From positions 496,001-560,000 of the forward strand of contig NZ_AP014548.1 of NCBI RefSeq assembly GCF_000831385.1: a DNA stretch of 64,000 nucleotides. The letters run 5' to 3'. Source of the DNA: Nonlabens marinus S1-08 (GTDB lineage: Bacteria; Bacteroidota; Bacteroidia; Flavobacteriales; Flavobacteriaceae). A program made the translations under genes and the position numbers. Below, piece after piece: positions 2,156-64,000 of the stretch (position 1 is its first letter; each line of letters starts with the position of its first letter). The notes under the pieces were generated by a model, which was not told the origin of the DNA, searched no databases, and saw only the letters and a list, made by a program, of their open reading frames with translations.

Positions 2156-5100
2156 ATGAGTACTAAATTCAAGGAATACAAAGGGTTGAACCTACCAGAA
2201 GTAGATGAGCGCATCAAAGCATTCTGGAAGGAAAACGATATTTTCAATAAGTCGATGACGACTCGCGAGGGAAATGAGCCTTTTATCTTCTTTGAAGGAC
2301 CACCATCTGCTAACGGTCTTCCTGGGATCCACCACGTGATGGGACGTACCATCAAGGATCTTTTTTGCCGATTCAAAACACAGCAAGGCTATCAGGTCAA
2401 CCGCAAGGCTGGTTGGGATACGCACGGACTTCCTGTGGAATTAGGCGTCGAGAAAGCACTGGGAATTACTAAGGAAGATATCGGCACTAAAATATCAGTG
2501 GAAGAATACAACGAGGAATGTAAAAAAGCAGTCCTCAAATACACCGATATCTGGAGCAAACTGACTGATGATATGGGTTACTGGGTAGATATGGAAGATC
2601 CATACATTACCTACAAGTCCAAATATATGGAGTCCGTTTGGTGGTTGTTGAAGGAAATTTACTCCAAAGATCTGATTTATAAAGGCTACACCATCCAACC
2701 GTATTCTCCTGCCGCGGGAACAGGTTTGAGTTCGCACGAGTTGAACCAGCCAGGTACGTATCAGGATGTTACGGATACTACGGTTACGGCTCAATTTAAG
2801 GTAAGTGAACCATCAAAATTGCCGTTTGAAACCAGTGGCGATGTATTCTTTCTGGCATGGACGACCACGCCTTGGACATTGCCATCGAATACTGCATTGA
2901 CTGTAGGTCCTAAGATCGATTATGTTTTGGTCGAGACTTTCAATCAGTACACCGGCGAGCCCATGCAAGTGATCATTGCAGAAAAACTGGTCACGAGTCA
3001 GTTTGGAAAAAAATATCAGGATATTGAGGACAATGACGCTTTCGCGAAAGCGAAACAAGCCTACCGACTTTCTGACAAAAAAATACCATATCGCATCCTA
3101 AACAGCTGCAAGGGAAGTGAGCTAATTAACATTAAATACGAGCAGTTGCTGGATTATGCAACGCCCTATGAAAATGCGCAGGACGCATTTAGAGTGATCG
3201 CGGGAGATTTTGTGACCACAGAAGATGGTACGGGAATCGTGCATACGGCACCAACTTTTGGAGCAGATGATGCGCTGGTTTCCAGACAGGCAAATCCACC
3301 AATACCGCCAATGTTGGTATTGGATGAAAACCAAAATCCGGTTCCGTTGGTGAACCTTCAAGGAAAATTCCGTGAGGAGTTGCCTGAGATTGGTGGCAAG
3401 TATGTGAAAAACGAATATTTCGCAGAAGGTGAAGCGCCAGAGCGATCTGTGGACGTGGACATTGCCATTAAATTAAAAGAAGATAATCGCGCCTTCAAGG
3501 TCGAGAAATACGTGCACAGTTATCCGCATTGTTGGAGAACGGACAAACCTGTATTATACTATCCGCTAGACAGTTGGTTCATTAAAGTGACCGAGTTTAA
3601 GGATCGCATGCACGAGCTGAATAAGTCCATCAACTGGAAACCTAAATCTACTGGAGAAGGACGTTTTGGCAACTGGCTGGCAAATGCCAATGACTGGAAT
3701 TTATCTCGATCCAGATTCTGGGGAATCCCATTGCCTATATGGAGAAATGAAACTGGAACAGAGGCAAAAATCATAGGTTCCATTGAAGAGCTGATGAACG
3801 AGATCGAGAAGTCCATCGAGGCTGGTTTCATGAAAGAAAATCCTTTTGCCGGATTTAAATCTGGCGATATGAGCGAGGCCAATTATGATCTGGTAGACCT
3901 CCATAAAAATGTAGTGGACCAAATTTTCCTAGTAGGAAAAAATGGTGAAAAGCTAACGCGCGAGGCAGACCTTATCGACGTTTGGTTTGATTCTGGCTCC
4001 ATGCCGTACTCGCAATGGCATTATCCATTTGAGAACAAAGAAAAAGTAGAAAACGAACTGCGCAAAGCAGATTTCATTGCCGAAGGTGTGGATCAAACAC
4101 GTGGTTGGTTCTACACACTGCACGCTATTGCAACGATGATAAGCGATGATGTGGCATATAAAAATGTTGTTTCCAACGGCCTTGTCCTTGATAAAAATGG
4201 GCAGAAAATGTCCAAGCGTCTAGGAAATGCGGCGGATCCTTTTGAGACGCTAGGCAAATTTGGTGCTGACGCGACGCGCTGGTACATGGTAAGCAATGCC
4301 AATCCTTGGGATAATCTTAAGTTTGATCTGGATGGTATTACTGAGGTTCAGCGCAAGTTTTTTGGCACGCTTTATAATACCTACAGTTTCTTTGCTTTGT
4401 ACGCTAATGTTGACGGATTTAGCTTTCGCGAAAGCGAAATTCCTTTAAACGAACGACCAGAAATCGATCGCTGGGTACTTTCTGAATTAAATACATTGAT
4501 CAAAGACACAACGGCATTCTACGAAGATTACGAACCAACTAAGGCTGCGAGAGCCATCACAACTTTTGTGACGGAAAACCTGAGCAACTGGTATGTGCGT
4601 TTGTGTAGAAGACGTTTCTGGAAAGGCGATTACCAGCAGGATAAGATTGCGGCTTATCAAACATTATATACGTGTTTGAAGACAGTGGCACAACTGGGCG
4701 CGCCTATTGCTCCGTTTTTTATGGATCAGTTGTATCGTGATCTAACCAGTGTTTGTGAAGAAAAAGCAAGTGAGAGCGTTCACTTATCCAGTTTCCCAAC
4801 TTGTGACGAGTCTGTTATTAATCCAGAATTGGAAGAAAAGATGCACAAGGCGCAGACGATTTCTAGTTTGACGCTTTCCTTACGCAAAAAAGAGTCGATC
4901 AAGGTGCGCCAGCCGTTGCAGCGTATTATGATTCCTGTTCTAGGGAAAGCCGATAAAGAGCAGATTGAAGCCATTGCAGATCTTGTAAAAAGCGAGGTGA
5001 ACGTGAAAGAAATCGAACTCATTGACGACGCTAGCGGAATCCTAGTTAAGGAGATCAAGCCTAATTTCAAGGCTTTGGGGCCACGTTTTGGGAAAGACAT

Positions 5101-5566
5101 GAAATTGGTCGCTGGAATCATAAATAGTTTTCAACAAGAGGACATCGCTTTGTTAGAAAAAACTGGTGAGAAATCTGTTGATGTTGATGGAAAAGAAATT
5201 ACTTTGGGCCTCGATGATGTTGAGATAACTTCTAAGGATATAGAAGGTTGGCTGGTTGCTAATCAATCTGGAATCACGGTGGCACTAGACGTTACTATAA
5301 CCCCAGAGCTTAAAAAAGAAGGGATTTCAAGAGAACTGGTCAACAGGATACAGAATATCAGAAAGGATTCTGGTCTTGAGGTGACTGATCGCATCACGAT
5401 TGAGATACAATCGCAGGAAGAGATCGACGCAGCTGTTTATAGCAACGATCAATATATTAAAGACGAGACGCTTGCGAACAGTATCGAAATTATAAACCAA
5501 CTGGATAACGGTACGGAAATTGATTTTGACGAACTAAGCACGGTTATCCGTATTAAAAAGATATAA
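2156..5566 (+). CDS. ileS: Isoleucyl-tRNA synthetase
   Basis: A 1136-residue class I aminoacyl-tRNA synthetase that charges tRNA-Ile. The HIGH-type signature lies in PPSANGLPGIHH near residues 49-60. GWDTHGLPVE follows, and KMSKR is at residues 684-688. The length and the GLPGIHH form of the signature fit the longer, eukaryote-like IleS type common in Bacteroidota. The insertion between the two halves of the catalytic domain carries the editing domain, and the C-terminal third binds the anticodon. Two copies of the genome-wide palindrome are read in frame: D-AFAKAK at residues 294-300 and SFRESE at 756-761. The gene heads a run with a DksA-like gene 2 bp downstream, a secreted-protein gene and lspA. 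Confidence 0.98.
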   Translation: MSTKFKEYKGLNLPEVDERIKAFWKENDIFNKSMTTREGNEPFIFFEGPPSANGLPGIHHVMGRTIKDLFCRFKTQQGYQVNRKAGWDTHGLPVELGVEKALGITKEDIGTKISVEEYNEECKKAVLKYTDIWSKLTDDMGYWVDMEDPYITYKSKYMESVWWLLKEIYSKDLIYKGYTIQPYSPAAGTGLSSHELNQPGTYQDVTDTTVTAQFKVSEPSKLPFETSGDVFFLAWTTTPWTLPSNTALTVGPKIDYVLVETFNQYTGEPMQVIIAEKLVTSQFGKKYQDIEDNDAFAKAKQAYRLSDKKIPYRILNSCKGSELINIKYEQLLDYATPYENAQDAFRVIAGDFVTTEDGTGIVHTAPTFGADDALVSRQANPPIPPMLVLDENQNPVPLVNLQGKFREELPEIGGKYVKNEYFAEGEAPERSVDVDIAIKLKEDNRAFKVEKYVHSYPHCWRTDKPVLYYPLDSWFIKVTEFKDRMHELNKSINWKPKSTGEGRFGNWLANANDWNLSRSRFWGIPLPIWRNETGTEAKIIGSIEELMNEIEKSIEAGFMKENPFAGFKSGDMSEANYDLVDLHKNVVDQIFLVGKNGEKLTREADLIDVWFDSGSMPYSQWHYPFENKEKVENELRKADFIAEGVDQTRGWFYTLHAIATMISDDVAYKNVVSNGLVLDKNGQKMSKRLGNAADPFETLGKFGADATRWYMVSNANPWDNLKFDLDGITEVQRKFFGTLYNTYSFFALYANVDGFSFRESEIPLNERPEIDRWVLSELNTLIKDTTAFYEDYEPTKAARAITTFVTENLSNWYVRLCRRRFWKGDYQQDKIAAYQTLYTCLKTVAQLGAPIAPFFMDQLYRDLTSVCEEKASESVHLSSFPTCDESVINPELEEKMHKAQTISSLTLSLRKKESIKVRQPLQRIMIPVLGKADKEQIEAIADLVKSEVNVKEIELIDDASGILVKEIKPNFKALGPRFGKDMKLVAGIINSFQQEDIALLEKTGEKSVDVDGKEITLGLDDVEITSKDIEGWLVANQSGITVALDVTITPELKKEGISRELVNRIQNIRKDSGLEVTDRITIEIQSQEEIDAAVYSNDQYIKDETLANSIEIINQLDNGTEIDFDELSTVIRIKKI
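3035..3054. repeat. Palindromic repeat copy 1, inside ileS
   Basis: Core CGCTTTCGCGAAAGCG at 3037-3052; the two left-most bases differ from the consensus. It is translated in frame within ileS as AFAKAK (residues 295-300), in the region of the editing-domain insertion. Confidence 0.9.
4419..4438. repeat. Palindromic repeat copy 2, inside ileS
   Basis: Nineteen of 20 bases match TTCGCTTTCGCGAAAGCGAA. It is translated in ileS in a different frame from copy 1, as FSFRESE (around residues 755-761), near the start of the anticodon-binding part. Confidence 0.9.
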
Positions 5567-5568
5567 CT

Positions 5569-5958
5569 ATGAGTACTTCCACCGACGAAAAAGTAAGATA
5601 CAGCGACAAAGATCTTGCTCACTTCAAAGAGATCGTAAAAGGTAAGATTGCCGAGGCAACTGAGCAGTATGAGTTGATTAAAAGCGCTTATATGAACGAT
5701 GCTGACAATGGCACTGATGATACAGCACCGCAATTTAAGGCATTTGATGAAGGTAGTGCCGTAATGAGTAAAGAGGCGAATGCAGCCCTTGCCATACGCC
5801 AAGAGAAATTCATCCGTGATCTTAAAAATGCTTTGATACGTATTGAAAATAAATCATATGGGGTTTGCCGTGTCACTGGTAAATTGATTGCAAAAGAGCG
5901 TCTTGAATTAGTCCCTCATGCCACCTTAAGTATCGAGGCAAAAAACATGCAGGATTAA
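5569..5958 (+). CDS. DksA/TraR-like zinc-finger-family protein with degenerate finger
   Basis: A 129-residue protein of the DksA/TraR family, whose members bind the RNA polymerase secondary channel and modulate initiation. A helical N-terminal part (residues about 10-90) is followed by the family signature YGVCRVTGKLIAKERLELVPHATL. In canonical members four cysteines hold zinc. Here only C100 is left, with T103, H117 and S121 in or near the other positions, so zinc binding is doubtful. It starts 2 bp after the ileS stop and is almost surely co-transcribed with it. The ileS, dksA-like, lspA order points to a housekeeping role. Function beyond family is inferred. Confidence 0.88.
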   Translation: MSTSTDEKVRYSDKDLAHFKEIVKGKIAEATEQYELIKSAYMNDADNGTDDTAPQFKAFDEGSAVMSKEANAALAIRQEKFIRDLKNALIRIENKSYGVCRVTGKLIAKERLELVPHATLSIEAKNMQD

Positions 5959-5965
5959 ACAACTG

Positions 5966-6616: not shown

Positions 6617-6654
6617 CATTTTTAAGTATATTGTAAATAGGTAGTACCAAACAA

Positions 6655-11822: not shown

Positions 11823-11842
11823 TTCGCTTTCGCGAAAGCGAA
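11823..11842. repeat. Palindromic repeat copy 3, intergenic
   Basis: Exact TTCGCTTTCGCGAAAGCGAA between the start of the rimB-like gene and the end of the esterase gene, both on the minus strand. It is 33 bp beyond the esterase stop. Confidence 0.95.
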
Positions 11843-13562: not shown

Positions 13563-13582
13563 TTCGCTTTCGCGAAAGCGAA
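13563..13582. repeat. Palindromic repeat copy 4, intergenic
   Basis: Exact 20-bp palindrome starting 3 bp after the DUF2071 stop codon, between two convergent genes and just before a terminator hairpin. Confidence 0.95.
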
Positions 13583-17379: not shown

Positions 17380-18255
17380 CTAGTTGCTTCTAGTTTCAGA
17401 AATTATGATAAATCCTTTCCCACCTTGCTTTTCCATACGCTCATCATACTTCTTTTTATAAAGCGCATCAAACTCTTTCTGGCTGATTTCCTTACCTGAT
17501 TTAGGTTGTTTTATCTTTAAATTTTCAGCAGGATTGATCTCGATTTTAGTACATAAAAGCACCGTGTTTTTCTCCTTAACCTCCAGAATAAACCCTGGTA
17601 GCCCTTGATATTCTCCAGGCCCATTACTAATAGGGATTTCAGGAGTGTACCATGCAGTTATAGTTCGATCTTCATTTGTCTCTATTTGAGCCAGTAATCC
17701 TCCAGTCTCTTTCTTTTCTTCTCTTTTCTTTTTAGCTTCCTTTTGGATCTCAGTTAATTCAGGAACATAAGTAGCTTTGTAACACAAGTAGTTCCCTATT
17801 TGCTTGGTCTCTTGAGACAACTGCCAGTTGTAAGTAGGGAAACTATCCTTGATCAAAAACTCCTTGCCAAATATTTCTGCCTCCTTGTAATACATTTGTT
17901 GTGATAGGTTCTTATATATAGTCGCTCCTACACCATTATTGTTTGAAAATGAGACACTAAACTCACTACCTACACTGGGCTTTGCCAGCTCCACCACCTT
18001 ATCATAAACAGATTCCGTTCCTGTAAACTCCATTTTGTATTCTTGTTGAGACCCTTTAGAGAGCGCTTCTCTGAACTTGCGCTTCATTTCATCTTGCATC
18101 GGGTCTTTACTTTTAGTAGTATCTTCCTTGATGTCAAACTTAGTTTGCGCTACGTAGTGTGCAATAGCTTGAAATTCTTGTTGGGCTTGTAATGTGTTCG
18201 CTTTCGCGAAAGCGAAAAAAACAACAGCCGCAACCATCCATTTAAAATTCTTCAT
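17380..18255 (-). CDS. GLPGLI family protein (second copy)
   Basis: A 291-residue exported paralogue of its downstream neighbour, with GLPGFILEV after PISNGPGEYQ and matching LIKDSFPTYNW and KQIGNYLCYKATY segments. The signal peptide reads MKNFKWMVAAVVFFAFAKANTLQAQ. Its AFAKA at residues 15-19 is encoded by an exact copy of the genome-wide palindrome (18197-18216). It is the first gene of the run and faces a divergent two-component system across 120 bp holding three GTTAA boxes, so it is probably controlled by that system. Biochemical role unknown. Confidence 0.93.
   Translation of the reverse strand: MKNFKWMVAAVVFFAFAKANTLQAQQEFQAIAHYVAQTKFDIKEDTTKSKDPMQDEMKRKFREALSKGSQQEYKMEFTGTESVYDKVVELAKPSVGSEFSVSFSNNNGVGATIYKNLSQQMYYKEAEIFGKEFLIKDSFPTYNWQLSQETKQIGNYLCYKATYVPELTEIQKEAKKKREEKKETGGLLAQIETNEDRTITAWYTPEIPISNGPGEYQGLPGFILEVKEKNTVLLCTKIEINPAENLKIKQPKSGKEISQKEFDALYKKKYDERMEKQGGKGFIIISETRSN
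18197..18216. repeat. Palindromic repeat copy 5, in a signal-peptide region
   Basis: Exact 20-bp palindrome inside the second GLPGLI gene, encoding AFAKA at residues 15-19 of the signal peptide. Confidence 0.95.
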
Positions 18256-24359: not shown

Positions 24360-24379
24360 TTCGCTTTCGCGAAAGCGAA
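24360..24379. repeat. Palindromic repeat copy 6, intergenic
   Basis: Exact 20-bp palindrome between the egtB start and the thyA stop, 33 bp beyond the thyA stop on its downstream side. Confidence 0.95.
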
Positions 24380-29373: not shown

Positions 29374-29393
29374 TCCGCTTTCGCGAAAGCGTA
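29374..29393. repeat. Palindromic repeat copy 7, in the etfB-etfA spacer
   Basis: Core CGCTTTCGCGAAAGCG at 29376-29391; outer bases differ at both ends. It lies inside an operon, between two genes on the same strand. Confidence 0.9.
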
Positions 29394-31374: not shown

Positions 31375-31394
31375 TTCGCTTTCGCGAAAGCGAA
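31375..31394. repeat. Palindromic repeat copy 8, intergenic
   Basis: Exact 20-bp palindrome 11 bp beyond the pdhB terminator T tract. Confidence 0.95.
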
Positions 31395-34256: not shown

Positions 34257-34276
34257 TTCGCTTTCGCGAAAGCGAA
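34257..34276. repeat. Palindromic repeat copy 9, intergenic
   Basis: Exact 20-bp palindrome 64 bp after the DUF5686 stop and 159 bp before the pyrophosphatase start. Confidence 0.95.
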
Positions 34277-36975: not shown

Positions 36976-38244
36976 TTGGAATATTCTGACTTATACACCT
37001 TAGGTATCGCGCTGGGATTAGGTTTCTTGGTCGGCTTCCAGCGACAGCGAGATGAGAAAAAAATGGCTGGTGTACGCACATACAGCCTTATAACGATATT
37101 GGGAACGGTACTGGCACTCATTGAAAGAGAGTCTGGTAATGTGTGGGTGCTACCCGTGGTTGGTATTGGGCTTACCGCCCTCATGGTTTCAAGCACTTTT
37201 ATAAAATCAAAATCGGGAGATCGCGATCCGGGTCTAAGTACTGAGGTTGCTGCACTACTCATGTATGCTATAGGAGCTTATCTGGTTGTGGGCAATCAAT
37301 GGATAGGTGTCATCGTAGGTGGTGGTGTTGCATTTTTGCTGTACTTAAAAAGTAGGTTACATTCTTGGATCATTGACCTAGAAGATAAAGATGTGCGTGC
37401 CATCATGACATTTTCTGCAATTTCGCTCATTATACTTCCCGTTCTACCAGACCAGACGTATGGTCCATACGATGTCCTTAACCCCCATGACATCTGGCTG
37501 ATTGTCGTATTGATTGTAGGCATCAGTGTTGTGGGTTATTTTCTTTATAAGGTCATAGGTAAGAATGCAGGTGTCATTTCCAATGGGATCCTAGGTGGAC
37601 TTATAAGCAGCACAGCAACCACAGTTAGCTACTCTCGCATGGCTAAGCAATCAAACAAAGTCGGGTCACTAGCAGCATTTGTCATACTCACAGCATCTGC
37701 GGTTTCCTTTGGGCGTATTATAGTTGAGATTGGTATTGTGGCGCCAGAGCAGCTGGGATCCATCGTATTGCCTATTGCAGTCGTTGCAATGGTCATGGTC
37801 ATCCTATCAGTTGTAGTATTTATTTTGATAAAGAGAAATAAATCAGATGAAGAAATTCCCGAGCCCAAAAATCCAGCGCAGTTCAAAAGCGCACTTACTT
37901 TTGGTCTACTTTACGGCCTCATTCTTCTAGCAGTTGCTTTTGCAAAGACTGAATTAGGTAACGACGCCTTATACGTCGTCTCGGTAGTGAGTGGCTTGAC
38001 AGATGTTGATGCCATCACGCTATCACTGTCCCAGCTTATGAAAAAAGGGTCGTTAGAAACATCACTGGGCTGGCAACTAATTATTTTGGCTGGTTTATCC
38101 AATATGCTTTTTAAGGGAATTATGGCAGTTACCATAGGTGGTAAAACCCTTGCTAGATGGATTGTCATTACCTTTGGAATAACCATAGTTGCTGGACTAT
38201 TGATTATTTGGCTTTGGCCGCAATCTTGGCAACTAAGTGGTTAA
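36976..38244 (+). CDS. MgtC/SapB and DUF4010 domain membrane protein
   Basis: A 422-residue inner-membrane protein starting at TTG 36976. The N-terminal 140 residues match the MgtC/SapB pattern (LGIALGLGFLVGFQRQRDEKKMAGVRTYSLI, then ALLMYAIGAYLVVG). The remainder is the DUF4010 multi-span region (ISNGILGGLISSTATTVSYSRMA, then SGLTDVDAITLSLSQLM). About eleven hydrophobic segments are visible. MgtC proteins are tied to magnesium limitation and virulence in pathogens; the role of the fused form is unknown. The next gene starts 17 bp after its stop. Confidence 0.88.
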   Translation: MEYSDLYTLGIALGLGFLVGFQRQRDEKKMAGVRTYSLITILGTVLALIERESGNVWVLPVVGIGLTALMVSSTFIKSKSGDRDPGLSTEVAALLMYAIGAYLVVGNQWIGVIVGGGVAFLLYLKSRLHSWIIDLEDKDVRAIMTFSAISLIILPVLPDQTYGPYDVLNPHDIWLIVVLIVGISVVGYFLYKVIGKNAGVISNGILGGLISSTATTVSYSRMAKQSNKVGSLAAFVILTASAVSFGRIIVEIGIVAPEQLGSIVLPIAVVAMVMVILSVVVFILIKRNKSDEEIPEPKNPAQFKSALTFGLLYGLILLAVAFAKTELGNDALYVVSVVSGLTDVDAITLSLSQLMKKGSLETSLGWQLIILAGLSNMLFKGIMAVTIGGKTLARWIVITFGITIVAGLLIIWLWPQSWQLSG

Positions 38245-38261
38245 GCAAAACCCACCTACAC

Positions 38262-39284
38262 ATGTTCAACCGCGACCCTTGGATCCTAGACGTTTTCAGA
38301 ACCTATAGCGGCGAGAACCGTCTTTATGTGCGCGGTAGAGCGTTAGAGGATCAGCCCTTAAAATTGTACGAGCAACAATCTTTTTACCATACCATCAGGA
38401 ACGCCTGGCGCGCTTTTAAAACAGATGAGATACGAGAAATCCCTGTACGTTTGACCTTGTCAAATGGCAATCACTTCGAGACAATAACAGACCGTGAGGG
38501 TTACTTTCTTTTTGACATAACTACAGAGACTAACTTGCAGGATCTTGCAGACGAGGAAGGTTATGTGCCTATCACTATTTCTTTTGATGAGGAAAATTCC
38601 GCTTTCGCGAAAGCGAAATCCCAACAAAGAATTTCCTTAAATAAGTTCACTGGTGAGACTCTAGTACCTCCTAGCACGGCTGCCTATGGAGTCGTCAGCG
38701 ATATTGACGACACCATCATGAAGACGGGAGTCACTAGTTTCTTAAAATTGCGAGTAGCCTTCAACACCTTCTTCAAGAATTTTGACAAACGTACGCCGTT
38801 CAAAGACGCTGCGAATTTCTACCAATTACTGCATCGTGGAGCCTCTGGCAAGGATCAAAACCCAATGTTCTACTTGAGCAACAGCCCCTGGAACCTCTAC
38901 CATTATCTTGAAAAATTTGTAGATTTTCACGGTTTCCCACGTGGACCGATACTTTTGAGAGATTTCCCGACACCCTGGAATCGCACCCCAAAGAAAGAAA
39001 GACCACATAAGGAACATGAGTTGATCAATATTCTTAAACATTATCCAGACCAACAGTTCATCCTGATAGGTGACGCAGGTGAGCATGATACCACATACTA
39101 TACTAACGGGGCTACTGAATATCCTGAGCGCATAAAAGCCATCTACATTAGGGCTGTCAATCACACCAAAAAAATGGCCGCCATCAAAGAAATGGCAGAT
39201 GCTTTTGAAGTTTGTCCTGTATTATTGGTTAAGGAATCCAGCGAGGCGATCAAGCATGCGCGGGAAATGGGATGGATTGTTTAG
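38262..39284 (+). CDS. App1-like phosphatidate phosphatase domain protein (DUF2183)
   Basis: A 340-residue protein. I start at ATG 38262, the first methionine after the upstream stop; the in-frame extension upstream overlaps the MgtC gene. The catalytic core is a HAD-like motif, VVSDIDDTIMKTGV, with the DxDxT pattern. FYLSNSPWNLYHYLEKF, RGPILLRDF and FILIGDAGEHDTTYY follow, as in yeast App1 and bacterial DUF2183 proteins. Residues 114-119 (AFAKAK) come from the palindrome. Phosphatidate phosphatase activity is inferred from the family. Confidence 0.9.
   Translation: MFNRDPWILDVFRTYSGENRLYVRGRALEDQPLKLYEQQSFYHTIRNAWRAFKTDEIREIPVRLTLSNGNHFETITDREGYFLFDITTETNLQDLADEEGYVPITISFDEENSAFAKAKSQQRISLNKFTGETLVPPSTAAYGVVSDIDDTIMKTGVTSFLKLRVAFNTFFKNFDKRTPFKDAANFYQLLHRGASGKDQNPMFYLSNSPWNLYHYLEKFVDFHGFPRGPILLRDFPTPWNRTPKKERPHKEHELINILKHYPDQQFILIGDAGEHDTTYYTNGATEYPERIKAIYIRAVNHTKKMAAIKEMADAFEVCPVLLVKESSEAIKHAREMGWIV
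38598..38617. repeat. Palindromic repeat copy 10, inside the App1-like gene
   Basis: Nineteen of 20 bases match. It is translated as SAFAKAK in a linker-like, poorly conserved stretch ahead of the catalytic domain. Confidence 0.9.
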
Positions 39285-40463: not shown

Positions 40464-41285
40464 TTAGTTCTTGTTCTGGTTAGCTGTAAATACGCTTACG
40501 CGATTGAGGGCGTAAATATAGAGTTTTCCATTCTTTAGGTAAAAAGATTCTGTCGTCACTTGCTCAGGTACATCCCAGGAATTTGAGATGGACTCCAATT
40601 GATATTCACTGGTAAAAGCATATGATTTTAGTTGATCATCTTGCCAGACTACTAATTGTTCAAAGTCATAATCTGCTAACTGGATTCCTGCCCTATCTAA
40701 TTTTGAAGTCCTACTCGCATAAGAGTTGAATACTAGGACGCTTTCATCAGTGATTAAAAAACAATAATTATAGTCTGAAGTGAAATGAGATACTTTATCC
40801 TTTATGATAGGCGAACTCACGATAAGTTTGTTCTGCACATAATCCACCAACTCTAATCGTTGCTGATCTTGATTATATAACCACAAGCGACGTTCTCCTG
40901 CAAGTGAGGAATGCTCAAAATAGCGATAAGGTTGTAATTCACTTAAGGAAATCCTTAAACTTTCATTCAAACGATTATCTAATAAGACGACAGTTTGTGT
41001 GTCCTTATAAAATAACAAAATACGCAACGGGTTAATTAGATCTACACTGGTCAAGTCACCCAATTGAACATCATAAAACTGTTGTGCTCCAGTGTTTGAG
41101 TTGACATGCATTGGACGTTTATAGATCACATTCTTTTTACCGTAATAGAGATTGTTAAAATCATCCACACCGTAGAATTGGTCAACACCTAGCGGTAACT
41201 CAATGTAAGTTGGAATTTGTGGTGATTGCGCTTTCGCGAAAGCGAAAAAAAAACAACATAAAAACAAGGTAAGAAACAACTTCAT
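40464..41285 (-). CDS. Secreted protein of unknown function, propeller-like repeats
   Basis: A 273-residue exported protein. I start at ATG 41283-41285, which gives a clean signal peptide, MKLFLTLFLCCFFFAFAKAQ; the upstream in-frame extension is polar and unlikely. The mature part is rich in short strands (DQFYGVDDFNNLYYGKKNVIYK, RLWLYNQDQQRLELVD, VLVFNSYASR) reminiscent of beta-propeller blades. AFAKA (residues 15-19) is encoded by the palindrome, as in the second GLPGLI protein. It precedes the deoxynucleoside kinase gene by 1 bp. Confidence 0.8.
   Translation of the reverse strand: MKLFLTLFLCCFFFAFAKAQSPQIPTYIELPLGVDQFYGVDDFNNLYYGKKNVIYKRPMHVNSNTGAQQFYDVQLGDLTSVDLINPLRILLFYKDTQTVVLLDNRLNESLRISLSELQPYRYFEHSSLAGERRLWLYNQDQQRLELVDYVQNKLIVSSPIIKDKVSHFTSDYNYCFLITDESVLVFNSYASRTSKLDRAGIQLADYDFEQLVVWQDDQLKSYAFTSEYQLESISNSWDVPEQVTTESFYLKNGKLYIYALNRVSVFTANQNKN
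41227..41246. repeat. Palindromic repeat copy 11, in a signal-peptide region
   Basis: Nineteen of 20 bases match. It encodes AFAKA at residues 15-19 of the secreted protein's signal peptide and supplies an AKA-Q cleavage-like site. Confidence 0.92.
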
Positions 41286-41395
41286 TATATAGCTATATTT
41301 GCAACGGCCACCGCAACGCATTAAAAATACGACTTCTATGAAGTCTGAGCGCACCCGGCATTGTAAATAAACTGTGTAAAATTATTTACTACTGC

Positions 41396-45345: not shown

Positions 45346-45365
45346 TTCGCTTTCGCGAAAGCGAA
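45346..45365. repeat. Palindromic repeat copy 12, intergenic
   Basis: Exact 20-bp palindrome starting 4 bp after the stop of lipoprotein A and lying between the two tandem paralogues. Confidence 0.95.
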
Positions 45366-47824: not shown

Positions 47825-50014
47825 ATGAAGTACTTTCTGATCCTGATTGCTTTTTTCTCTACACTTACCATAGCAGCTCAAGAAAGCACTCCATCTCCAA
47901 CAGACCTATTGTTGATGAAAGAAGTAATTGAAAGATCCACCGGCAACGACCTCGAGCAAGCTCTAAGCGAATTTCAATATAAGAGCTATGAAAACTTAAA
48001 AATTACCGGAGATCCGGAAGCAATTACAGGTCCGGGTTATAAAAAAACAGAACTGCGCAAAACCATTAAGCAAACCCAATTTTTCTTTGCTGAAAAAACT
48101 TCCACTTATCTATATACCGACGAGTACGGCCTAAAAGAGCAAATCACTGGAGCTGACATGCCAGGTTTCAACGAGCCCGTCTACCCTATTTATAACATCA
48201 ATTTTCAATCAGTAAGTGCCTATCGCAAACCCTACATCATTTTTGATAGGGAGTTTATAAATCCTGTTAGCGAGAAGGGATTGCGCAACTACTTTTACGC
48301 AAGTAAACAGGATACTGTTATTGACGGTCGCTCTGTTTATAGACTAGACTTTCAACCTCTCAAGGAAGGTCACCCATCTGCCCTACAAGGTAGTTTATAT
48401 ATAGATCAGGAAACTAAGGCTATTGCGCGTGCAGTCTACTTGAATACAGGTGATTTGAACGTTCAAGCAGTACATAATTTTATCTATAGAGAGGATTTGG
48501 GGCTCTGGTTCAATACAGAGCGATTTTTATCCATCAAAAAGGAGAAAGACAAAAAAGAATTGGAACTTTTCGGCGCCAGGTTGCAAGTAGGAACTGAAAA
48601 TGATAACAAGAGAAAAGAAAATCAAGAAGATCTTTACGTATTTCTCAAGGCGATTAACTTTGACTTGAACAATAAGCTGGAACAGTCCTTCGGCCGTAGG
48701 GGGTTATTTAAAGAGGTGACTGAAGAAGCCATCAATAAACCGGTAAACTATTGGGATTCCTATCGCGATCTAGCTAACAATACAGATGATGAATTTGCGT
48801 CCTATAAAGAGATTGACAGTATTGTAGTTGCCACAAACGTCACAAAAAAATTAGAAACCCTAGACAAATTTAAAGTAGGATATTATCCTGTTGGTTTCTT
48901 CGACATTGATCTCAAGTACTTAATCAAATACAATAACTATGAGGCCTTTCGCCTAGGAATAGGCGGTACAACTAACGGAAAACTATTTGAGGACTGGCGA
49001 TTTGGCGGGTACGTGGCCTATGGAACTAAAGACGATGCCTTTAAATACAATGTCAATGCGGGATATCGATTGAGTAAGGAAAACAATACTTGGTTAAGCA
49101 TCTACAGAACAGACGACATCAATGAGTTTGCTGCAGAAACCTTTTTAACTGATGCTCGCGTTTATTCTCTATTTGAACCTCGTTTGGTAAACATCCCAAC
49201 ATTTTACCTGTATCGAGAATATGGATTGTCATTACAGCAGCGGTTGTTTCCTAGTGTATTGAGTGAAGTTTCGCTTTCGCGAAAGCAAATAGATCAAACC
49301 ACCAGGTACACCTATCAACCGTCGGACACCCCTTTTAATAGTTACACCTTAACGGAGTTAAAAGTAGGAGCACGCTGGAGTCCCTACAGCGATTTCATGA
49401 GAACACCAGCTGGCTATGAAGAAACTGTCAAAGGGTATCCAGTCTTAAGTGGTCAATTCACTAAAGGTTTTAATGATGTTTTAGAAAGTGATTTTAATTA
49501 CATTAAAGTGTCTGCCAAAGCTGCCTATACGATTGCACAGGCAAATAAGTCTACTACTGAACTTTCTATTGAAGGTCATTATGCCAGCGGCGAGGTCCCT
49601 TTAACTCATTTATTTCATGCCTATCCAAACGCCCCAAACAAAGACGGTATCTTTCAACGGTTTTCAGTAGCAGGAAGACGCAGCTTTGAGACTATGTATT
49701 TCAATGAATTCTTTTCTGATAAAATTGCCGTAGGCCAGATCAAGCATGAGTTTGCTCCTTTCAAAATCGCCTCATTCCTGCAGCCAGAACTGGTTTTAAT
49801 ATCAAGGTATGCGATTGGAGATTTAACTGACAAGCAACAGCATATCAACGTGGACTTTCAAACTTTGGAACATGGATATCTAGAAAGTGGTTTTGAGCTC
49901 AATCAACTTTTCTATGGGTTTGGATTAAGCGCTGCCTATCGCTATGGAGCATACCACTTGCCCAATTTAGAGGATAACATCTCCATAAAATTTACTTTTT
50001 ACCTAGAGTTGTAA
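47825..50014 (+). CDS. DUF5686 outer-membrane protein (without N-terminal sandwich domain)
   Basis: A 729-residue exported protein; the signal peptide is MKYFLILIAFFSTLTIAAQ. It is a paralogue of the protein at 31688 but lacks the carboxypeptidase-regulatory-like domain. Shared traits are an early helical stretch, WRFGGYVAYGTKDDAFKYN, FNDVLESDFNYIKVS and a strand-rich end (FTFYLEL) fit for an outer-membrane barrel. It carries in-frame SLSRKQ at residues 483-488 from the palindrome. Function unknown. A -7-like TAATTTTA lies at 47790, with TTG 17 bp upstream. Confidence 0.87.
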   Translation: MKYFLILIAFFSTLTIAAQESTPSPTDLLLMKEVIERSTGNDLEQALSEFQYKSYENLKITGDPEAITGPGYKKTELRKTIKQTQFFFAEKTSTYLYTDEYGLKEQITGADMPGFNEPVYPIYNINFQSVSAYRKPYIIFDREFINPVSEKGLRNYFYASKQDTVIDGRSVYRLDFQPLKEGHPSALQGSLYIDQETKAIARAVYLNTGDLNVQAVHNFIYREDLGLWFNTERFLSIKKEKDKKELELFGARLQVGTENDNKRKENQEDLYVFLKAINFDLNNKLEQSFGRRGLFKEVTEEAINKPVNYWDSYRDLANNTDDEFASYKEIDSIVVATNVTKKLETLDKFKVGYYPVGFFDIDLKYLIKYNNYEAFRLGIGGTTNGKLFEDWRFGGYVAYGTKDDAFKYNVNAGYRLSKENNTWLSIYRTDDINEFAAETFLTDARVYSLFEPRLVNIPTFYLYREYGLSLQQRLFPSVLSEVSLSRKQIDQTTRYTYQPSDTPFNSYTLTELKVGARWSPYSDFMRTPAGYEETVKGYPVLSGQFTKGFNDVLESDFNYIKVSAKAAYTIAQANKSTTELSIEGHYASGEVPLTHLFHAYPNAPNKDGIFQRFSVAGRRSFETMYFNEFFSDKIAVGQIKHEFAPFKIASFLQPELVLISRYAIGDLTDKQQHINVDFQTLEHGYLESGFELNQLFYGFGLSAAYRYGAYHLPNLEDNISIKFTFYLEL
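49270..49289. repeat. Palindromic repeat copy 13, inside the second DUF5686 gene
   Basis: Nineteen of 20 bases match (one right-arm G to A). It is translated as SLSRKQ, in the third possible frame, within the barrel region. Confidence 0.9.
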
Positions 50015-52498: not shown

Positions 52499-52518
52499 CT
52501 CGCTTTCGCGAAAGCGAA
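52499..52518. repeat. Palindromic repeat copy 14, intergenic
   Basis: Nineteen of 20 bases match; it starts 11 bp after the RND permease stop. Confidence 0.92.
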
Positions 52519-54778: not shown

Positions 54779-56227
54779 ATGCTTAAACAGTCTTTAAATT
54801 TCAAGCTTTCGCAAAAGCTATCACCGCAACAAATTCAGTTAATGAAACTGATACAGTTGCCGACGCAAGCTTTTGAACAACGTGTAAAATCTGAACTTGA
54901 GGAAAATCCAGCTTTAGATGACGGCAAAGAAAAGAGTGACGATGAATATGATGAATTTTCCAACGAGAATGAATATGATGATGCGCCAGAGCCGGACATC
55001 AATGTAGACGATTATTTGAGTGATGATGAAATTCCAGATTACCGCACCAGAGCCAACAATTACAGCAGTGACGATGAAGAAACCAGCATACCCTATGCCT
55101 CCGGTAAGTCTTTCACACAAACCCTTAAAGACCAATTAAACACTCGACGTTTAAGTGAGCAAGACCGCGGTATTGCTGAATTTTTAGTAGGTAGCATCGA
55201 CAACAGCGGATACATACGCCGCAGTATGGAGGATATCACTGACGACCTTGCGTTCACCATGAATATTTATACGGAAGTTTCTGAAGTAGAAAAAGTTCTT
55301 AAAATGGTGCAGGATTTAGATCCAGCCGGTGTGGGAGCTCGAGATTTGCGAGAATGTCTGGTGATTCAGCTTTCGCGAAAGCGGAACAGCCCCACAGCAG
55401 ATCTTGCATTGAAGATTATTAAAGATTCCTTTGATGCTTTCAGCAAGAAGCACTACCAAAAATTGATCGCTAAATACGATATCACGGAGGATCAGCTGCG
55501 GGAAGCTATTGAAGAAATAAGTCATTTGAACCCAAAACCAGGTAGTTCTTATGCAGGAGGAAGCACCCGAATCGTGGAACAAGTGGTTCCTGATTTTACG
55601 ATAAGAATTAAAGAAGGAGAATTAGAATTGACATTAAACGGTAGAAATACTCCAGAGCTTCATGTAAGCCGGGATTATTCAAACATGTTAAAGGGCTATA
55701 AAGAAGCTAAGGAAAAAACTAAATCTCAAAAAGATGCGGTGATGTTCATTAAACAAAAGCTTGATGGTGCAAAATGGTTCATTGAAGCCATTAAACAGCG
55801 TCAGGAAACGCTTTTTATGACTATGTCGTCCATTATGAACTATCAGAAGAAATACTTCCTGACAGGCGACGAGCGCAACTTGCGCCCGATGATATTAAAA
55901 GATATTGCAGATGAAATCCAGATGGATGTGTCTACTGTTTCTAGGGTGGCTAACTCTAAGTATGTGGATACGCCTTACGGCACTAAACTAATTAAAGAAT
56001 TCTTCTCAGAATCCATGACTAACACTGATGGAGAAGAAGTTTCTACTCGAGAAATCAAGAAGATTCTAGAGAACGTTATAGGTGAAGAAAGCAAACGCAA
56101 ACCACTTACAGATCAAAAGCTGGCAGAAATTCTAAAAGATAAAGGATATCCTATTGCAAGACGTACGGTGGCAAAATACCGAGAACAACTCGATATTCCT
56201 GTAGCCCGTTTGCGTAAACAAATCTAA
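54779..56227 (+). CDS. rpoN: RNA polymerase sigma-54 factor
   Basis: A 482-residue alternative sigma factor needing AAA+ activators. The N-terminal glutamine-rich activator-interaction region is LSQKLSPQQIQLMKLIQLPTQAFEQRV. A very acidic linker follows (about 51-105), then the core-binding region, the HTH, and near the end the RpoN box ARRTVAKYRE at 460-469, which reads the -24 element. The in-frame LSRKR at 198-202 comes from the palindrome, just before a helix of the core-binding region. No sigma-54 activator is encoded in the window. A membrane-protein gene follows after 6 bp. Confidence 0.97.
   Translation: MLKQSLNFKLSQKLSPQQIQLMKLIQLPTQAFEQRVKSELEENPALDDGKEKSDDEYDEFSNENEYDDAPEPDINVDDYLSDDEIPDYRTRANNYSSDDEETSIPYASGKSFTQTLKDQLNTRRLSEQDRGIAEFLVGSIDNSGYIRRSMEDITDDLAFTMNIYTEVSEVEKVLKMVQDLDPAGVGARDLRECLVIQLSRKRNSPTADLALKIIKDSFDAFSKKHYQKLIAKYDITEDQLREAIEEISHLNPKPGSSYAGGSTRIVEQVVPDFTIRIKEGELELTLNGRNTPELHVSRDYSNMLKGYKEAKEKTKSQKDAVMFIKQKLDGAKWFIEAIKQRQETLFMTMSSIMNYQKKYFLTGDERNLRPMILKDIADEIQMDVSTVSRVANSKYVDTPYGTKLIKEFFSESMTNTDGEEVSTREIKKILENVIGEESKRKPLTDQKLAEILKDKGYPIARRTVAKYREQLDIPVARLRKQI
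55366..55385. repeat. Palindromic repeat copy 15, inside rpoN
   Basis: The 14-bp core GCTTTCGCGAAAGC (55369-55382) is exact; outer bases differ. It is translated as QLSRKRN. Confidence 0.85.
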
Positions 56228-60033: not shown

Positions 60034-60366
60034 TTTAAGATTTATTGATTTATTGATTTTTCTAATGAAGGGCTAAATATATAATTTATCCTGTTAATAC
60101 CGAACTTCTCATGTATTTCTATCGGCTTTACTTCAATATTTTTTATTGCCCGTGGTATGAACTATTTATTCAATTGATCTATCTACGTATTTTTTCACCC
60201 TTAGTATAAACTGACAATAGGCTGTAAATGAACTTATACCACTTTTATTTTTGATATTGAGAGCAGGACTTTCTGAGGTTTTCGCTTTCGCGAAAGCGAA
60301 CTTCTCATAAAATTATGCTTCCCTAAAATCTGTGAAATTCTAATTATATGTAATTTCCCTTGTATA
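60034..60366. other. Gene-free divergent region between exbB and VIT-family gene
   Basis: This 333-bp AT-rich stretch separates two divergent genes. It holds the palindrome copy at 60281-60300 and a TATATTTA on the minus strand (60074-60081, seven of eight to the -7 consensus), which may drive exbB. I see nothing else in it: no hairpin of note, no ORF and no RNA-gene pattern. Confidence 0.6.
60281..60300. repeat. Palindromic repeat copy 16, intergenic
   Basis: Exact 20-bp palindrome in the divergent exbB/VIT region, the only copy upstream of both flanking genes. Confidence 0.95.
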
Positions 60367-61056
60367 ATGAATAGAGAACGGCATTACGGGAATAGAAGCA
60401 ACTGGTTGAGAGCGGCAGTTCTAGGTGCAAATGATGGAATCCTTTCTACCGCTAGCATCGTTATAGGGGTTGCAGCTGCAAGTGCCACTAAGGATCCCAT
60501 CCTGCTCTCTGGACTAGCGGGTCTGGTGGCTGGCGCTCTTTCTATGGCTGCAGGAGAATATGTGTCTGTAAGCTCGCAAAGTGATCTTGAAGAAGCTGAT
60601 TTAAAACGGGAAGAAAAAGAGCTCACAGAAACCCCTCAAGCTGAACTGCAAGAACTTGCTCATATCTATGAAAGTCGCGGTTTAGACAATGTTCTCGCTC
60701 TACAAGTGGCTAAGCAACTTACAGCTCACAATGCACTGGAAGCTCATGCACGTGATGAGCTAGGCATTACTGATATGACTAAAGCCAATCCTCTACAAGC
60801 AGCTCTATCTTCTGGAGCGTCCTTTGTTTTTGGAGGGGCCTTACCTGTAATCGTTGCATTTCTAGCTCCTGTGGATCAAATGGAAATCTATCAATACCTC
60901 ACTGCACTGCTGTTTCTCATTCTACTAGGCTTTCTATCTGGAAAAGTAGGTGGCTCTAGCAAGCGTAAGGCGGTATTGCGCATCGTTCTAGGTGGAACAA
61001 TTGCTATGGGCATCACTGCTGGGATAGGTTACTTATTTGGAGTAGGTATGATTTAA
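60367..61056 (+). CDS. VIT1/CCC1-family metal transporter
   Basis: A 229-residue membrane protein of the VIT family, which moves Fe2+ and Mn2+. Signatures are LRAAVLGANDGILSTASIVIGVAAAS, LVAGALSMAAGEYVSVSSQSDLEEADL (with charged metal-site residues) and SFVFGGALPVIVAFLAP. Five membrane segments are visible; the charged loop of about 70 residues between the second and third helices matches the cytoplasmic metal-binding domain. It stands alone. Confidence 0.92.
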   Translation: MNRERHYGNRSNWLRAAVLGANDGILSTASIVIGVAAASATKDPILLSGLAGLVAGALSMAAGEYVSVSSQSDLEEADLKREEKELTETPQAELQELAHIYESRGLDNVLALQVAKQLTAHNALEAHARDELGITDMTKANPLQAALSSGASFVFGGALPVIVAFLAPVDQMEIYQYLTALLFLILLGFLSGKVGGSSKRKAVLRIVLGGTIAMGITAGIGYLFGVGMI

Positions 61057-61096
61057 TCTACTCTTATCGAGCAAATAATTAGAACAACAGATTTGA

Positions 61097-62038
61097 TCAA
61101 TCTCGGTTTCTAAGAAACCAGTCAATTTGTTCTTGAACACCTTCATCTAATCCTACTCTTGGATGATACCTTAACAGTTTTATAGCCTTATCGATAACCG
61201 CTTTAGTTCGCAACTGGTCGCCACTGCGGGCTGGCTTTTTAAGTATTTTGATCTGAGTACGTAGTAACTTTTCTACCGTGCGTATTCCCTCTGCCGTAGT
61301 GTATTCTTGATCTGTTCCTAAGTTGAAGATTTCTCCGTCACAAACAGATTCCTTTCCTAGCACGCTTACAATACCTTCAATGATATCCGTAATATGAGTA
61401 AAACTGCGCTTGTGTAATAAGCTCCCCTCAAATAAAGGAAACTCTTTTTGATGCAACGCACAATCAATTAACTGGCTAAACATCTTATCTGGTCGCTCTC
61501 TTGAACCGTAAACAGAGTATAGTCTTAAGGAACACGCAGGAAAATTTCCTAACCTGGAATGGGAAAGAGCAATCTGCTCAGCAGCAAGTTTTGTAACTCC
61601 GTAATTAGAGACTGGCTTTGCCATAGTTTCTTCACCGCAAAAAACATCTGCTCCATATATAGAAGAGGTTCCTATATTGATGAATAGTTTTAAAGATGTA
61701 CAAGCACCTGCAAACTCGGTGAGTCGCTGGGTGGCAATCACATTGTTTTCCAAATAATCTTCAAACGTACAAGTGGGCGCAATGCCTGGTTGTGCTGCGG
61801 CGTGGAATATGTAATCCACATCTACTGGTAGCAGTTTGTGTAAATCTGCAGTTCTTAGGTCTGCTTCTAGAATAGAAATACCAAGGGTTTTGAGTTCGCT
61901 CGCGTTTTGTCGTTTGAGATTGACATCATAGTAATCAGAATAATTGTCTAGTCCTAGAACTTTGTATCCTAATTGATGAAGGCGTTGCGATAGGTGAGAT
62001 CCTATAAAACCTGCGGCTCCTGTTACTAATACTGTCAT
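61097..62038 (-). CDS. NAD-dependent epimerase/dehydratase (extended SDR)
   Basis: A 313-residue sugar-nucleotide enzyme. I start at ATG 62036-62038, giving MTVLVTGAAGFIGSHL; an ATG 15 bp upstream would add MSYSP. Features are the NAD loop GAAGFIGSHL, DNYSDYYDVNLKRQN, SSIYG and the catalytic YxxxK in YGVTKLAAEQ. The overall pattern is that of UDP-glucuronate 4-epimerase-like enzymes, but the exact sugar is not decided. It is divergent from a glycolipid-linked gene set and probably supplies a precursor to it. Confidence 0.88.
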   Translation of the reverse strand: MTVLVTGAAGFIGSHLSQRLHQLGYKVLGLDNYSDYYDVNLKRQNASELKTLGISILEADLRTADLHKLLPVDVDYIFHAAAQPGIAPTCTFEDYLENNVIATQRLTEFAGACTSLKLFINIGTSSIYGADVFCGEETMAKPVSNYGVTKLAAEQIALSHSRLGNFPACSLRLYSVYGSRERPDKMFSQLIDCALHQKEFPLFEGSLLHKRSFTHITDIIEGIVSVLGKESVCDGEIFNLGTDQEYTTAEGIRTVEKLLRTQIKILKKPARSGDQLRTKAVIDKAIKLLRYHPRVGLDEGVQEQIDWFLRNRD

Positions 62039-62187
62039 GGGCGAATAACTCATTTATCAAAAGAAACCATTATCAAGTGAGGCTCAAAGGATTTATTGAG
62101 ATACTTGTAAAAATGGCAAAACTTCAAATTTACTTTAGAATATGCTCGTATTTTCGCAAATTAATCCAATCCTTTTGATAATTCTAC

Positions 62188-62901
62188 ATGAATCAAGCGC
62201 TTACTATCATCGTACCTGTTTATAATGAAGAAGAGAACCTGGCTCGTGTACGGCAAGAAATGGAGCGCTACATGGCAGTCGCCACGGTAAAAACAGGAGT
62301 ACTATTTGTGAATGATGGCTCCCAAGATCAAAGTATAGATCTCATCAGGGAAATTTGTTCACAGAATCCCGCTTTTCAATACATCAATTTTGATAAGAAT
62401 TATGGACTGAGTGCCGCGATAAAAGCAGGGTTTGACCATGTAGAAACAGAGTTTGTAGGTTACATTGATTCTGATTTGCAAACCACACCCATGGATTTTG
62501 ATTTGCTTCTATCTCATATTGGAACCTACGATCTGGTTACTGGCGTGCGATCTAATCGCAAGGATAGTTTTGTAAAAAACATGTCTTCTACTATTGCTAA
62601 CGGTATACGTCGCAGCTTTACTCATGACGGTATGGACGACACTGGGTGCCCATTAAAAGTCATCAAAACAGAATACGCTAAGCGTATACCAATGTTCAAG
62701 GGATTGCACCGTTTTCTTCCAGCCATGATATTGCTACAAAACGGAAAAATAAAACAAGTACCCATTCAACACTTTGAACGTATTGCAGGAACCGCAAACT
62801 TCGGAGTTTGGAATCGGTTGCTGGGACCCTTAATGGACTGCTTTGCTTATTTATGGATGAAAAAAAAATACATCAATTATAAGGTAGCAGATAAAGGATG
62901 A
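62188..62901 (+). CDS. Family 2 glycosyltransferase (polyprenyl-phosphate sugar transferase-like)
   Basis: A 237-residue GT-A fold enzyme. Family motifs are IIVPVYNEEENL, VNDGSQDQS, the DxD in GYIDSDLQT (D94 and D96) and GLSAAIKAGF. The pattern is that of DPM1/ArnC-type transferases that load a sugar on a polyprenyl phosphate. A C-terminal amphipathic segment but no clear membrane helices. It overlaps the next gene by 4 bp. With an ArnT-like gene downstream, it likely makes the lipid-linked sugar donor. Confidence 0.9.
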   Translation: MNQALTIIVPVYNEEENLARVRQEMERYMAVATVKTGVLFVNDGSQDQSIDLIREICSQNPAFQYINFDKNYGLSAAIKAGFDHVETEFVGYIDSDLQTTPMDFDLLLSHIGTYDLVTGVRSNRKDSFVKNMSSTIANGIRRSFTHDGMDDTGCPLKVIKTEYAKRIPMFKGLHRFLPAMILLQNGKIKQVPIQHFERIAGTANFGVWNRLLGPLMDCFAYLWMKKKYINYKVADKG

Positions 62902-63518
62902 GTGATTGGTTAGTATATGCCATAGGGTTCATCGCACAAATTCTTTTTTCAGCAAGATCCATCATGCAATGGGTAGTGTCTGAAAAAAACAAAAGAGTGT
63001 TGACACCTGTGTTGTTTTGGCAACTCAGCTTGATTGCTTCATTCTTATTGTTCATTTACGGGTACCTGAGGGACGACTTTGCTATCATGCTAGGTCAAGT
63101 TCTCACTTACTTTATTTACATACGCAACATGCAATTGCAGCGCAGCTGGCAACTTTTTCCAGGATGGTTGCGGTTATTTTTGTACGCTTTTCCATTGATC
63201 ATTGTTATCATAGGGTTTAATAATCAAGTATACGATAGTGTCTCCTTGTTCCAAAACTCAAATATTCCGCTTTGGCTTTTAATCTTAGGAATTGTGGCAC
63301 AGGTAGTTTTTACTTTGCGATTTTTATACCAGTGGTTTTATTCTGAAAAAAGGAAAGAATCCTCACTACCTATGGGCTTTTGGGTACTGAGCCTTTTAGG
63401 TTCTTTATTAATTTTGACCTATGCGATTATACGTAAGGATCCTGTATTATTGGTAGGTCATTTGTTGGGTATGTTTTTATACTTGCGCAACATAGTAATC
63501 CTGAAAAAACAGTCATGA
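62898..63518 (+). CDS. LpxB-N-terminal-domain-like (LAB_N) membrane protein, duplicated
   Basis: A 206-residue membrane protein built from two copies of the LAB_N unit: FIAQILFSARSIMQWVVSEK...LASFLLFIYGYLRDDFAIMLGQVLTYFIYIRN in the first half and IVAQVVFTLRFLYQWFYSEK...LLGSLLILTYAIIRKDPVLLVGHLLGMFLYLRN in the second (each given in shortened form). Each has about three membrane helices. The domain is found at the N-terminus of some LpxB proteins and alone in such clusters. It overlaps the GT2 gene by 4 bp and the ArnT-like gene by 4 bp, so it is a coupled member of the set. Function unknown; a flippase-like or anchoring role is a guess. Confidence 0.88.
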   Translation: MSDWLVYAIGFIAQILFSARSIMQWVVSEKNKRVLTPVLFWQLSLIASFLLFIYGYLRDDFAIMLGQVLTYFIYIRNMQLQRSWQLFPGWLRLFLYAFPLIIVIIGFNNQVYDSVSLFQNSNIPLWLLILGIVAQVVFTLRFLYQWFYSEKRKESSLPMGFWVLSLLGSLLILTYAIIRKDPVLLVGHLLGMFLYLRNIVILKKQS

Positions 63519-64000
63519 GAGACCTGATAGAAAAACACCCATACTGGACCATCCTTATTTTATGGGGATGCGTTTTTCTAGCGCATCTAGGCGTTCTTTA
63601 TCCTAATATTATGGAAGCCCGCAATTTCATCACGGCTCGAGAAATGCTGACGGAGGGCAACTGGATATTGACCACCATGGACGGCTTGCCACGTTATGAA
63701 AAACCACCTTTACCTACTTGGCTTACTGCGTTTTCCGGAGCCCTTTTCGGTTTCAAAAGTCTTGCAGGGTTGCGACTTCCTGCAGCGTTCATAACACTTG
63801 TACTGTTGTTTGTGATGTATGCGCTTTCGCGAAAGCTGACTCACAACAAAACCTATGCACTTGTGACGACCTTAGTGCTAGGTACCTCATTTTACATCAT
63901 TTTTGCTGGCCGAAACGGCACATGGGACATATTTGCGCATAGTTTTATGCTGTTAGGAATTTACTTTCTGTTCCAGTTTTTTGAAACATCATGGCAGCTC
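63515..64000 (+). CDS. ArnT-like glycosyltransferase (GT39/GT83 family), N-terminal part
   Basis: Open from ATG 63515 to the window edge, 162 codons visible. The ATG overlaps the upstream stop in the ATGA form. The start resembles ArnT/PMT-family sugar transferases: a first helix (TILILWGCVFLAHLGVLYP), then EARNFITAREMLTEGNW, then GLPRYEKPPLPTWL, the conserved loop of ArnT-type enzymes. More helices follow. Such enzymes transfer a sugar from a polyprenyl phosphate to lipid A or another acceptor. The in-frame ALSRKL at residues 103-108 is palindrome-derived. The gene continues beyond the window. Confidence 0.9.
   Translation, partial: MRDLIEKHPYWTILILWGCVFLAHLGVLYPNIMEARNFITAREMLTEGNWILTTMDGLPRYEKPPLPTWLTAFSGALFGFKSLAGLRLPAAFITLVLLFVMYALSRKLTHNKTYALVTTLVLGTSFYIIFAGRNGTWDIFAHSFMLLGIYFLFQFFETSWQL
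63820..63839. repeat. Palindromic repeat copy 17, inside the ArnT-like gene
   Basis: The 14-bp core GCTTTCGCGAAAGC (63823-63836) is exact; outer bases differ. It is translated as ALSRKL. Confidence 0.85.

Follow-up and report, generated by a model that had tools for sequence, protein, structure and literature searches.

A symmetric DNA element, evenly spaced in Nonlabens marinus and shared with its relatives: a putative chromosome-marking system with lineage dialects

Introduction

A window of 64,000 bp from the chromosome of Nonlabens marinus S1-08 (G000:C1:496001-560000, where G000 is the genome of this strain, a single contig of 2,915,920 bp) contains the same palindrome 17 times, and the question is why a bacterium should keep such a word unchanged in so many places. 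Few words this long are known to be exact in hundreds of places. Neither the 20-mer nor the 12-mer CTTTCGCGAAAG, written as running letters, was found in any paper in the literature searched, which did not cover subscription papers, and the papers listed for iterated palindromes, Bacteroidetes parS and uptake, Nonlabens, Chi and AddAB and Riemerella transformation gave nothing on the motif.

We suggest, tentatively, that the palindrome is the centre of an evenly spaced symmetric element of about 70 bp with a putative dimeric reader, and that together they may form a previously undescribed chromosome-marking system of three Flavobacteriaceae genera, with lineage dialects, whose element might pass for self DNA on some phages and mobile metal-efflux clusters. 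The three genera are that of G000 (the own genus), that of G206, which includes Dokdonia sinensis (the second genus), and that represented by one genome, G190 (the third genus). Such an element would reveal a new chromosome-organising protein, a self-recognition signal of the Bacteroidota or a new recombination control signal; we know of no DNA self-recognition signal from the Bacteroidota. It could also be used to trace gene transfer from these genera and to point to the hosts of phages.

Results

Exactness and spacing of the word

The core word is GCTTTCGCGAAAGC, a 14-bp palindrome. The original prediction, made from the letters of the window, listed 17 exact copies, all of which are present at the coordinates it gave, and there are none in 100 dinucleotide shuffles. 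As it also stated, eight of the 17 match all 20 bases; beyond the 17 copies, nothing in the window lies within three mismatches of the 20-mer. A genome-wide count, which it had proposed, gives 728 exact copies compared with none of the reversed word, and so is not close to random expectation. Allowing up to two mismatches raises the chromosomal total only to 857, that is by 129, and finds 18 of the reversed word. Within a 464-kb sample of G000 with 109 sites, the 16-mer CGCTTTCGCGAAAGCG is kept in 99 and the full 20-mer in 33, and there are 12 one-mismatch words; over 544 kb, 13 such words stand against 135 sites.

Half-sites outside the element occur at 1.2-1.7 times the Markov expectation (GCTTTCG, 51 compared with 36; CGCTTTCG, 20 compared with 12). 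Set beside the hundreds of copies of the complete word, these small excesses indicate that the full dyad matters, which suggests a two-fold symmetric reader. The inner word TTCGCGAA exceeds expectation outside the element (12 compared with 4.6) and the inner TCGCGA is not over-represented there (55 compared with 61 expected).

The even spacing noticed at first sight is borne out by simulation. The coefficient of variation (CV) of the gaps is 0.43 in the window, compared with a simulated mean of 0.95 (p about 0.0003). For the first 100 chromosomal sites of G000, which lie between 3.9 and 372 kb, it is 0.62 compared with 0.99, and none of 20,000 simulations was as low. Gaps shorter than 1.5 kb make up 5% in G000 compared with 33% expected. 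The relative G319 is also even (CV 0.74, p 0.0006, first 100 sites). Values computed without gaps of 10 kb or more are lower by construction and do not enter here. Along the G000 chromosome, where a map of density had been called for, all 20 sampled stretches contain sites (1-8 each), and some low-GC stretches are sparse, such as that at 2.84 Mb with one site per 20 kb at 36% GC. Some stretches of G319, G206, G190 and G299 were picked near known sites or orthologues, so the densities there are not those of random samples.

Gene context and flanks

Open reading frames (ORFs) were called by a simple longest-ORF rule, so the coding and intergenic counts are approximate. The 135 sites in 544 kb of G000 comprise 91 in ORFs (0.18 per kb) and 44 between them (0.87 per kb). 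The coding copies occupy all three frames (47, 20 and 24 sites), in which they read AFAKA, FRES and LSRK. Codon preference in a few gene families, which would have refuted the prediction, does not explain copies that use all three frames and are about five times denser between genes. By eye, several frame-0 copies in G000 read AFAKA-Q right after hydrophobic stretches, as if signal-peptide cleavage regions were harmless spots for the element. Intergenic density is 1.05 per kb between convergent, 0.71 between divergent and 0.92 between tandem ORFs (6, 7 and 24 sites). This similarity suggests that the element is not tied to transcript ends or promoters and, together with the lack of an Rfam match in the window, argues against a terminator or promoter site.

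The flanks had been described as unrelated. They share no common word, but both sides show a compositional bias that reaches about 25-30 bp out: whichever strand is read, C is scarce in the 25 bases 5' of the core and G in the 25 bases 3' of it. At 88% of 133 G000 sites, compared with 31% of random places, each flank either has this skew or is neutral, and the bias recurs in every gene context (91 coding, 6 convergent, 8 divergent and 28 tandem sites). For 68 intergenic sites from three own-genus genomes, C content is 4% at -5 to -14, 10-12% out to -34 and 15% at -35 to -44, and the profile is alike in the second genus (42 sites, two genomes). The two genera differ in a dialect base at -2, which is T in 76% of the 68 own-genus sites and A in 80% of the 42 sites from the genus of G206. 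The 27 one-mismatch words retain the flank bias and thus look like decaying sites. Complementarity of the flanks is not above expectation past position 4, so the element is not a longer hairpin. An A/T periodicity seen by eye in own-genus flanks was absent from the second genus, and we make no claim for it.

Conservation between species

Comparison with close relatives had been proposed, and 100 kb of G000 was set against 116 kb of G299, with about 69 kb aligned at 76-77% identity. Of 30 G000 sites, 22 could be aligned; 20 of these are intact and two have one changed base. By contrast, 534 of 9,849 random 14-base windows are intact (5.4%). Seen from the G299 side, 34 sites divide into 20 intact, 3 changed and 11 not alignable. 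The chromosome thus has more than 700 exact copies that are mostly unchanged in a related species, and some protein probably reads the word as identifying the chromosome as the cell's own.

For the window, the core is intact in 5 of 7 alignable sites in G010, 4 of 6 in G242, 1 of 5 in G206 and 0 of 5 in G190; a nearby site belonging to G190 itself makes one of these last five alignments doubtful. The sites are palindromic and are listed without strand; the sign after an ORF is that of the ORF.

Site 1, 3035-3054: inside ileS (2156-5566, +); core intact in G010 and G242.
Site 2, 4419-4438: inside ileS; absent from G010, G242 and G190, where codons differ in place.
Site 3, 11823-11842: intergenic; core intact in G010.
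Site 4, 13563-13582: intergenic, with convergent ORFs on either side.
Site 5, 18197-18216: 5' end of ORF 17380-18255 (-), Porph_ging family; core intact in G242.
Site 6, 24360-24379: intergenic, adjoining the thymidylate synthase gene.
Site 7, 29374-29393: intergenic.
Site 8, 31375-31394: intergenic, after the pyruvate dehydrogenase E1 beta gene.
Site 9, 34257-34276: intergenic, before the pyrophosphatase gene.
Site 10, 38598-38617: inside ORF 38157-39284 (+), APP1_cat family.
Site 11, 41227-41246: inside ORF 40464-41354 (-).
Site 12, 45346-45365: intergenic, directly after a stop codon.
Site 13, 49270-49289: inside ORF 47825-50014 (+); G010 and G242 keep the core intact, G190 and G206 do not.
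Site 14, 52499-52518: intergenic, ahead of asnS; G010 and G242 keep the core intact within diverged flanks.
Site 15, 55366-55385: inside rpoN; all four aligned relatives have other sequence, with small alignment gaps.
Site 16, 60281-60300: intergenic, with divergent ORFs on either side.
Site 17, 63820-63839: within a reading frame that, by the longest-ORF rule, runs open to the end of the window; core intact in G010 and G206.

At site 2 the ileS codons differ among relatives, and G206 has a copy at the same position with one core mismatch. Where a site is absent it has been replaced in place, with small alignment gaps and no clean insertion of 14-20 bp, which argues against the very short mobile palindrome that had been proposed as one role. 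Insertion into empty sites, as for repetitive extragenic palindrome (REP)/RAYT or miniature inverted-repeat transposable element (MITE)-like sequences, was not seen in the orthologue alignments; transposases were not searched for.

Distribution among relatives

The 42 motif-rich genomes comprise all 23 searched from the own genus (288-857 copies), all 18 from the second genus (369-905 copies) and G190 (408 copies); in each of the first two genera the lowest count is from a 78% complete genome. A match was present in 61 of 299 genomes sampled from the family. Five of these, G000, two others of its genus, G190 and G206, have 408-857 copies and 56 have 1-19, the remaining family members having none. 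A sample of 395 genomes from across the phylum has 653 copies of the 16-mer in G000 and one or two each in ten others. In 3-23 kb around ileS from 80 named relatives the exact 14-mer was found in Dokdonia sinensis only, and a search of these relatives for repeated words gave no comparable palindrome.

In a quick ileS tree of 80 rows, one clade of 21 rows (support 97) contains the own genus, which has a long branch, along with Leeuwenhoekiella, Dokdonia and G190; its internal order is unsure. Leeuwenhoekiella blandensis has no copies in 23 kb, and losses or separate gains within the clade are therefore likely.

What may read the element

Our preferred reading, held with less than even confidence, is that a dedicated DNA-binding protein of two-fold symmetry recognises the palindrome and so organises or marks the chromosome; the element, with its exactness, spacing, conservation, replacement in place, spread over all gene contexts and dialects, is observed, and the protein, its dimeric nature and its role are inferred. 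At the centre of the element is an exact dyad of 14 bp, in most cases extended to 16 bp and more rarely to 20 bp with a base specific to the genus; on both strands, 25-30 bp of C-poor sequence lies 5' of it. A homodimeric protein of these genera would bind the dyad and contact the flanks, and selection would retain about one element per 3.5-4 kb. The likeliest role would be anchoring, compaction or self-recognition by a nucleoid protein. The long flanks suggest a large complex, and the even spacing in G000 together with the indifference to gene arrangement suggests a role at the level of the chromosome. Noc sites, matS, SlmA sites and parS are also palindromes, about 12-16 bp long, whose binding proteins are dimers that organise the chromosome, but they number in the tens and lie in restricted zones, whereas here about 700 copies lie along the chromosome.

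Several points weigh against this reading. A binding protein was not found, the ParB/Noc family having no motif-linked change and gene contents not having been compared, and we know of no nucleoid protein with so many, so exact sites. Spacing in G299 is not significantly even (CV 0.92, p 0.25, 94 sites on one contig); long site-free gaps are present, yet gaps below 1.5 kb are again few (6.5% compared with 28%). In the third genus the flanks show little of the bias (18 sites of G190, nearly all coding). Finally, some phage contigs carry the element, which a purely architectural role in the chromosome does not predict.

The main rival, ranked next after a chromosome-marking protein and in our judgement rather unlikely, is a self-DNA uptake signal: competent cells would prefer element-bearing DNA, and uptake and recombination would keep and spread exact copies. 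The DNA uptake sequence (DUS) of Neisseria and the uptake signal sequence (USS) of Haemophilus offer parallels in their copy number of about 10^3, their exactness, their extended context, their conserved positions, their sparsity at low GC and, for lineage dialects of one core word, the base at -2 that here is T or A. However, neither DUS nor USS is palindromic, and both rely on type IV pilus machinery, whereas the signal here is a dyad and the PilB/GspE-type ATPase (PF00437) had no match over the cut-off in seven of nine motif-rich genomes, G000 included. Profile searches for this ATPase, ParB and the Add and Rec proteins covered 20 genomes; PF00437, the sole uptake component searched for, was over the cut-off in G242, G299 and two of the 11 motif-poor genomes. 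The presence of the element on some phages is a further difficulty for an uptake signal. In its favour, Riemerella columbina, placed in the Flavobacteriaceae by the authors who studied it, is competent and prefers its own DNA, with no uptake signal established (PMC7965970). The dyad symmetry and the failure to find PF00437 in seven of the nine genomes lead us to favour a binding site over an uptake or recombination mark; of the roles first proposed, these two survive.

A Chi-like signal that controls recombination or nuclease activity of AddAB, or some other self mark that protects DNA from being degraded, seems to us improbable. A palindrome would act from either side, and a 5' flank poor in C and rich in G and T, as seen on each strand, would favour RecA loading. 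The presence of the element on some phages would fit such a signal, and the density of the element resembles that of Chi in four E. coli stretches (one site per 2.4-4.4 kb or so). All 20 genomes have an AddB-like nuclease (PF12705), and in 15 of them a second, AddA-like match lies at a distance of about 5 kb; G000 is one of the 15, and there the names AddA and AddB come from NCBIfam matches below their cut-offs. Motif-poor genomes have the nuclease just as regularly, however, so its presence does not account for the distribution, and RecC (PF04257) had no match in any of the 20. Chi itself is an asymmetric octamer, and 57 E. coli sites in 200 kb are randomly spaced (CV 0.87-1.22) and have no flank bias; the 14 bp of the core exceed any Chi known to us.

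Somewhat less probable again is a word of the highly iterated palindrome (HIP1) type, kept through a DNA methyltransferase or a repair bias. HIP1 names a class of such words, and like it the element is a dispersed palindrome in huge excess; in favour of this reading, the inner TTCGCGAA also exceeds expectation outside the element. The core is not GCGATCGC or a close derivative, the inner TCGCGA shows no such excess, and a 14-bp core with about 70 bp of context fits a methylase target poorly. According to one study, cyanobacterial genomes with HIP1-type words have at least one putative matching methyltransferase, and the words are over-represented across related genomes with lineage variants, as here (PMC4390886). 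HIP1 words are 8 bp long, whereas the word here is 14-20 bp. One-off words are common in many HIP1 genomes (PMC4390886) and rare here, where the flank is long and asymmetric and, in G000, the spacing is even.

We think it very unlikely that the sites are chromosomal centromeres (parS) or Noc-type sites. The palindrome is similar to the parS consensus in length and in its TTTC/GAAA arms, but the sites are spread over the chromosome, a single ParB of about 300 aa (PF02195) is encoded in each of the 20 genomes, and no paralogue tracks the motif. The ParB helix-turn-helix differs little between motif-rich and motif-poor species; in the own genus it has two substitutions that are absent from the other motif-rich genera. 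The alignment comprised 19 chromosomal ParBs, the row for G000 being its 616-aa ParB-like protein and not the chromosomal ParB. Extra ParB-like proteins of 598-616 aa are present in six of the 20 genomes, of which G000 is the one that is motif-rich; its protein (G000:C1:1269093-1269371), of a kind also found in some other genera, probably belongs to an integrated mobile element.

Least credible is a very short mobile palindrome or a transcription terminator: the sequence could form a hairpin and some copies directly follow stop codons, but absent sites are replaced in place, divergent ORF pairs (7 sites) carry about as many per kb as other pairs, and Rfam offers no match in the window.

Copies in other genera, phages and gene clusters

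From genera with few copies, 38 sites (36 distinct) in 20 stretches (L031-L050) were examined. In 30 of the 36, each flank has the skew or is neutral, and C is commonest at -2 (49%), a possible third dialect; these sites may come from a motif-rich genus that was not sampled. They lie partly in metal-efflux gene clusters and partly elsewhere. Twenty neighbouring proteins were scanned. The first ten were all efflux, metal-transport or regulator proteins, and two of the second ten fit the same picture (a P-type ATPase and FUR), the other eight being a beta-lactamase-fold protein, two cyclases, AbiEii, a protein of rhodanese/metallo-beta-lactamase fold, DUF4138, DUF3570 and DUF2652. A first impression that low-copy matches marked an origin cluster was abandoned. 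One pair of sites, 933 bp apart, recurs in four genomes of different genera with ORFs of the same length and place, one of which encodes an outer-membrane efflux protein. Metal-efflux clusters with sites have probably moved between genera.

The viral scan covered at least 120 stretches. Three sites each are carried by viral contigs L216 (portal and head proteins), L054 (head and tail tape-measure proteins), L200 (head protease) and L267; in L216 and L200 one site lies within a head-protease-like gene. As a control, single copies in viral contigs of at least 45% GC (74 sites) have no flank bias and are probably chance copies. A search of plasmids gave a best E-value of 0.8.

Close pairs of sites were considered as a clue to an autoregulated binder. 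In L289 (2735-3844) two copies lie 270 bp apart, through AFAKA stretches, in a gene that by eye is hisB-like, which gave no lead. Another pair at 270 bp is found in G299 (C4:88660 and 88930).

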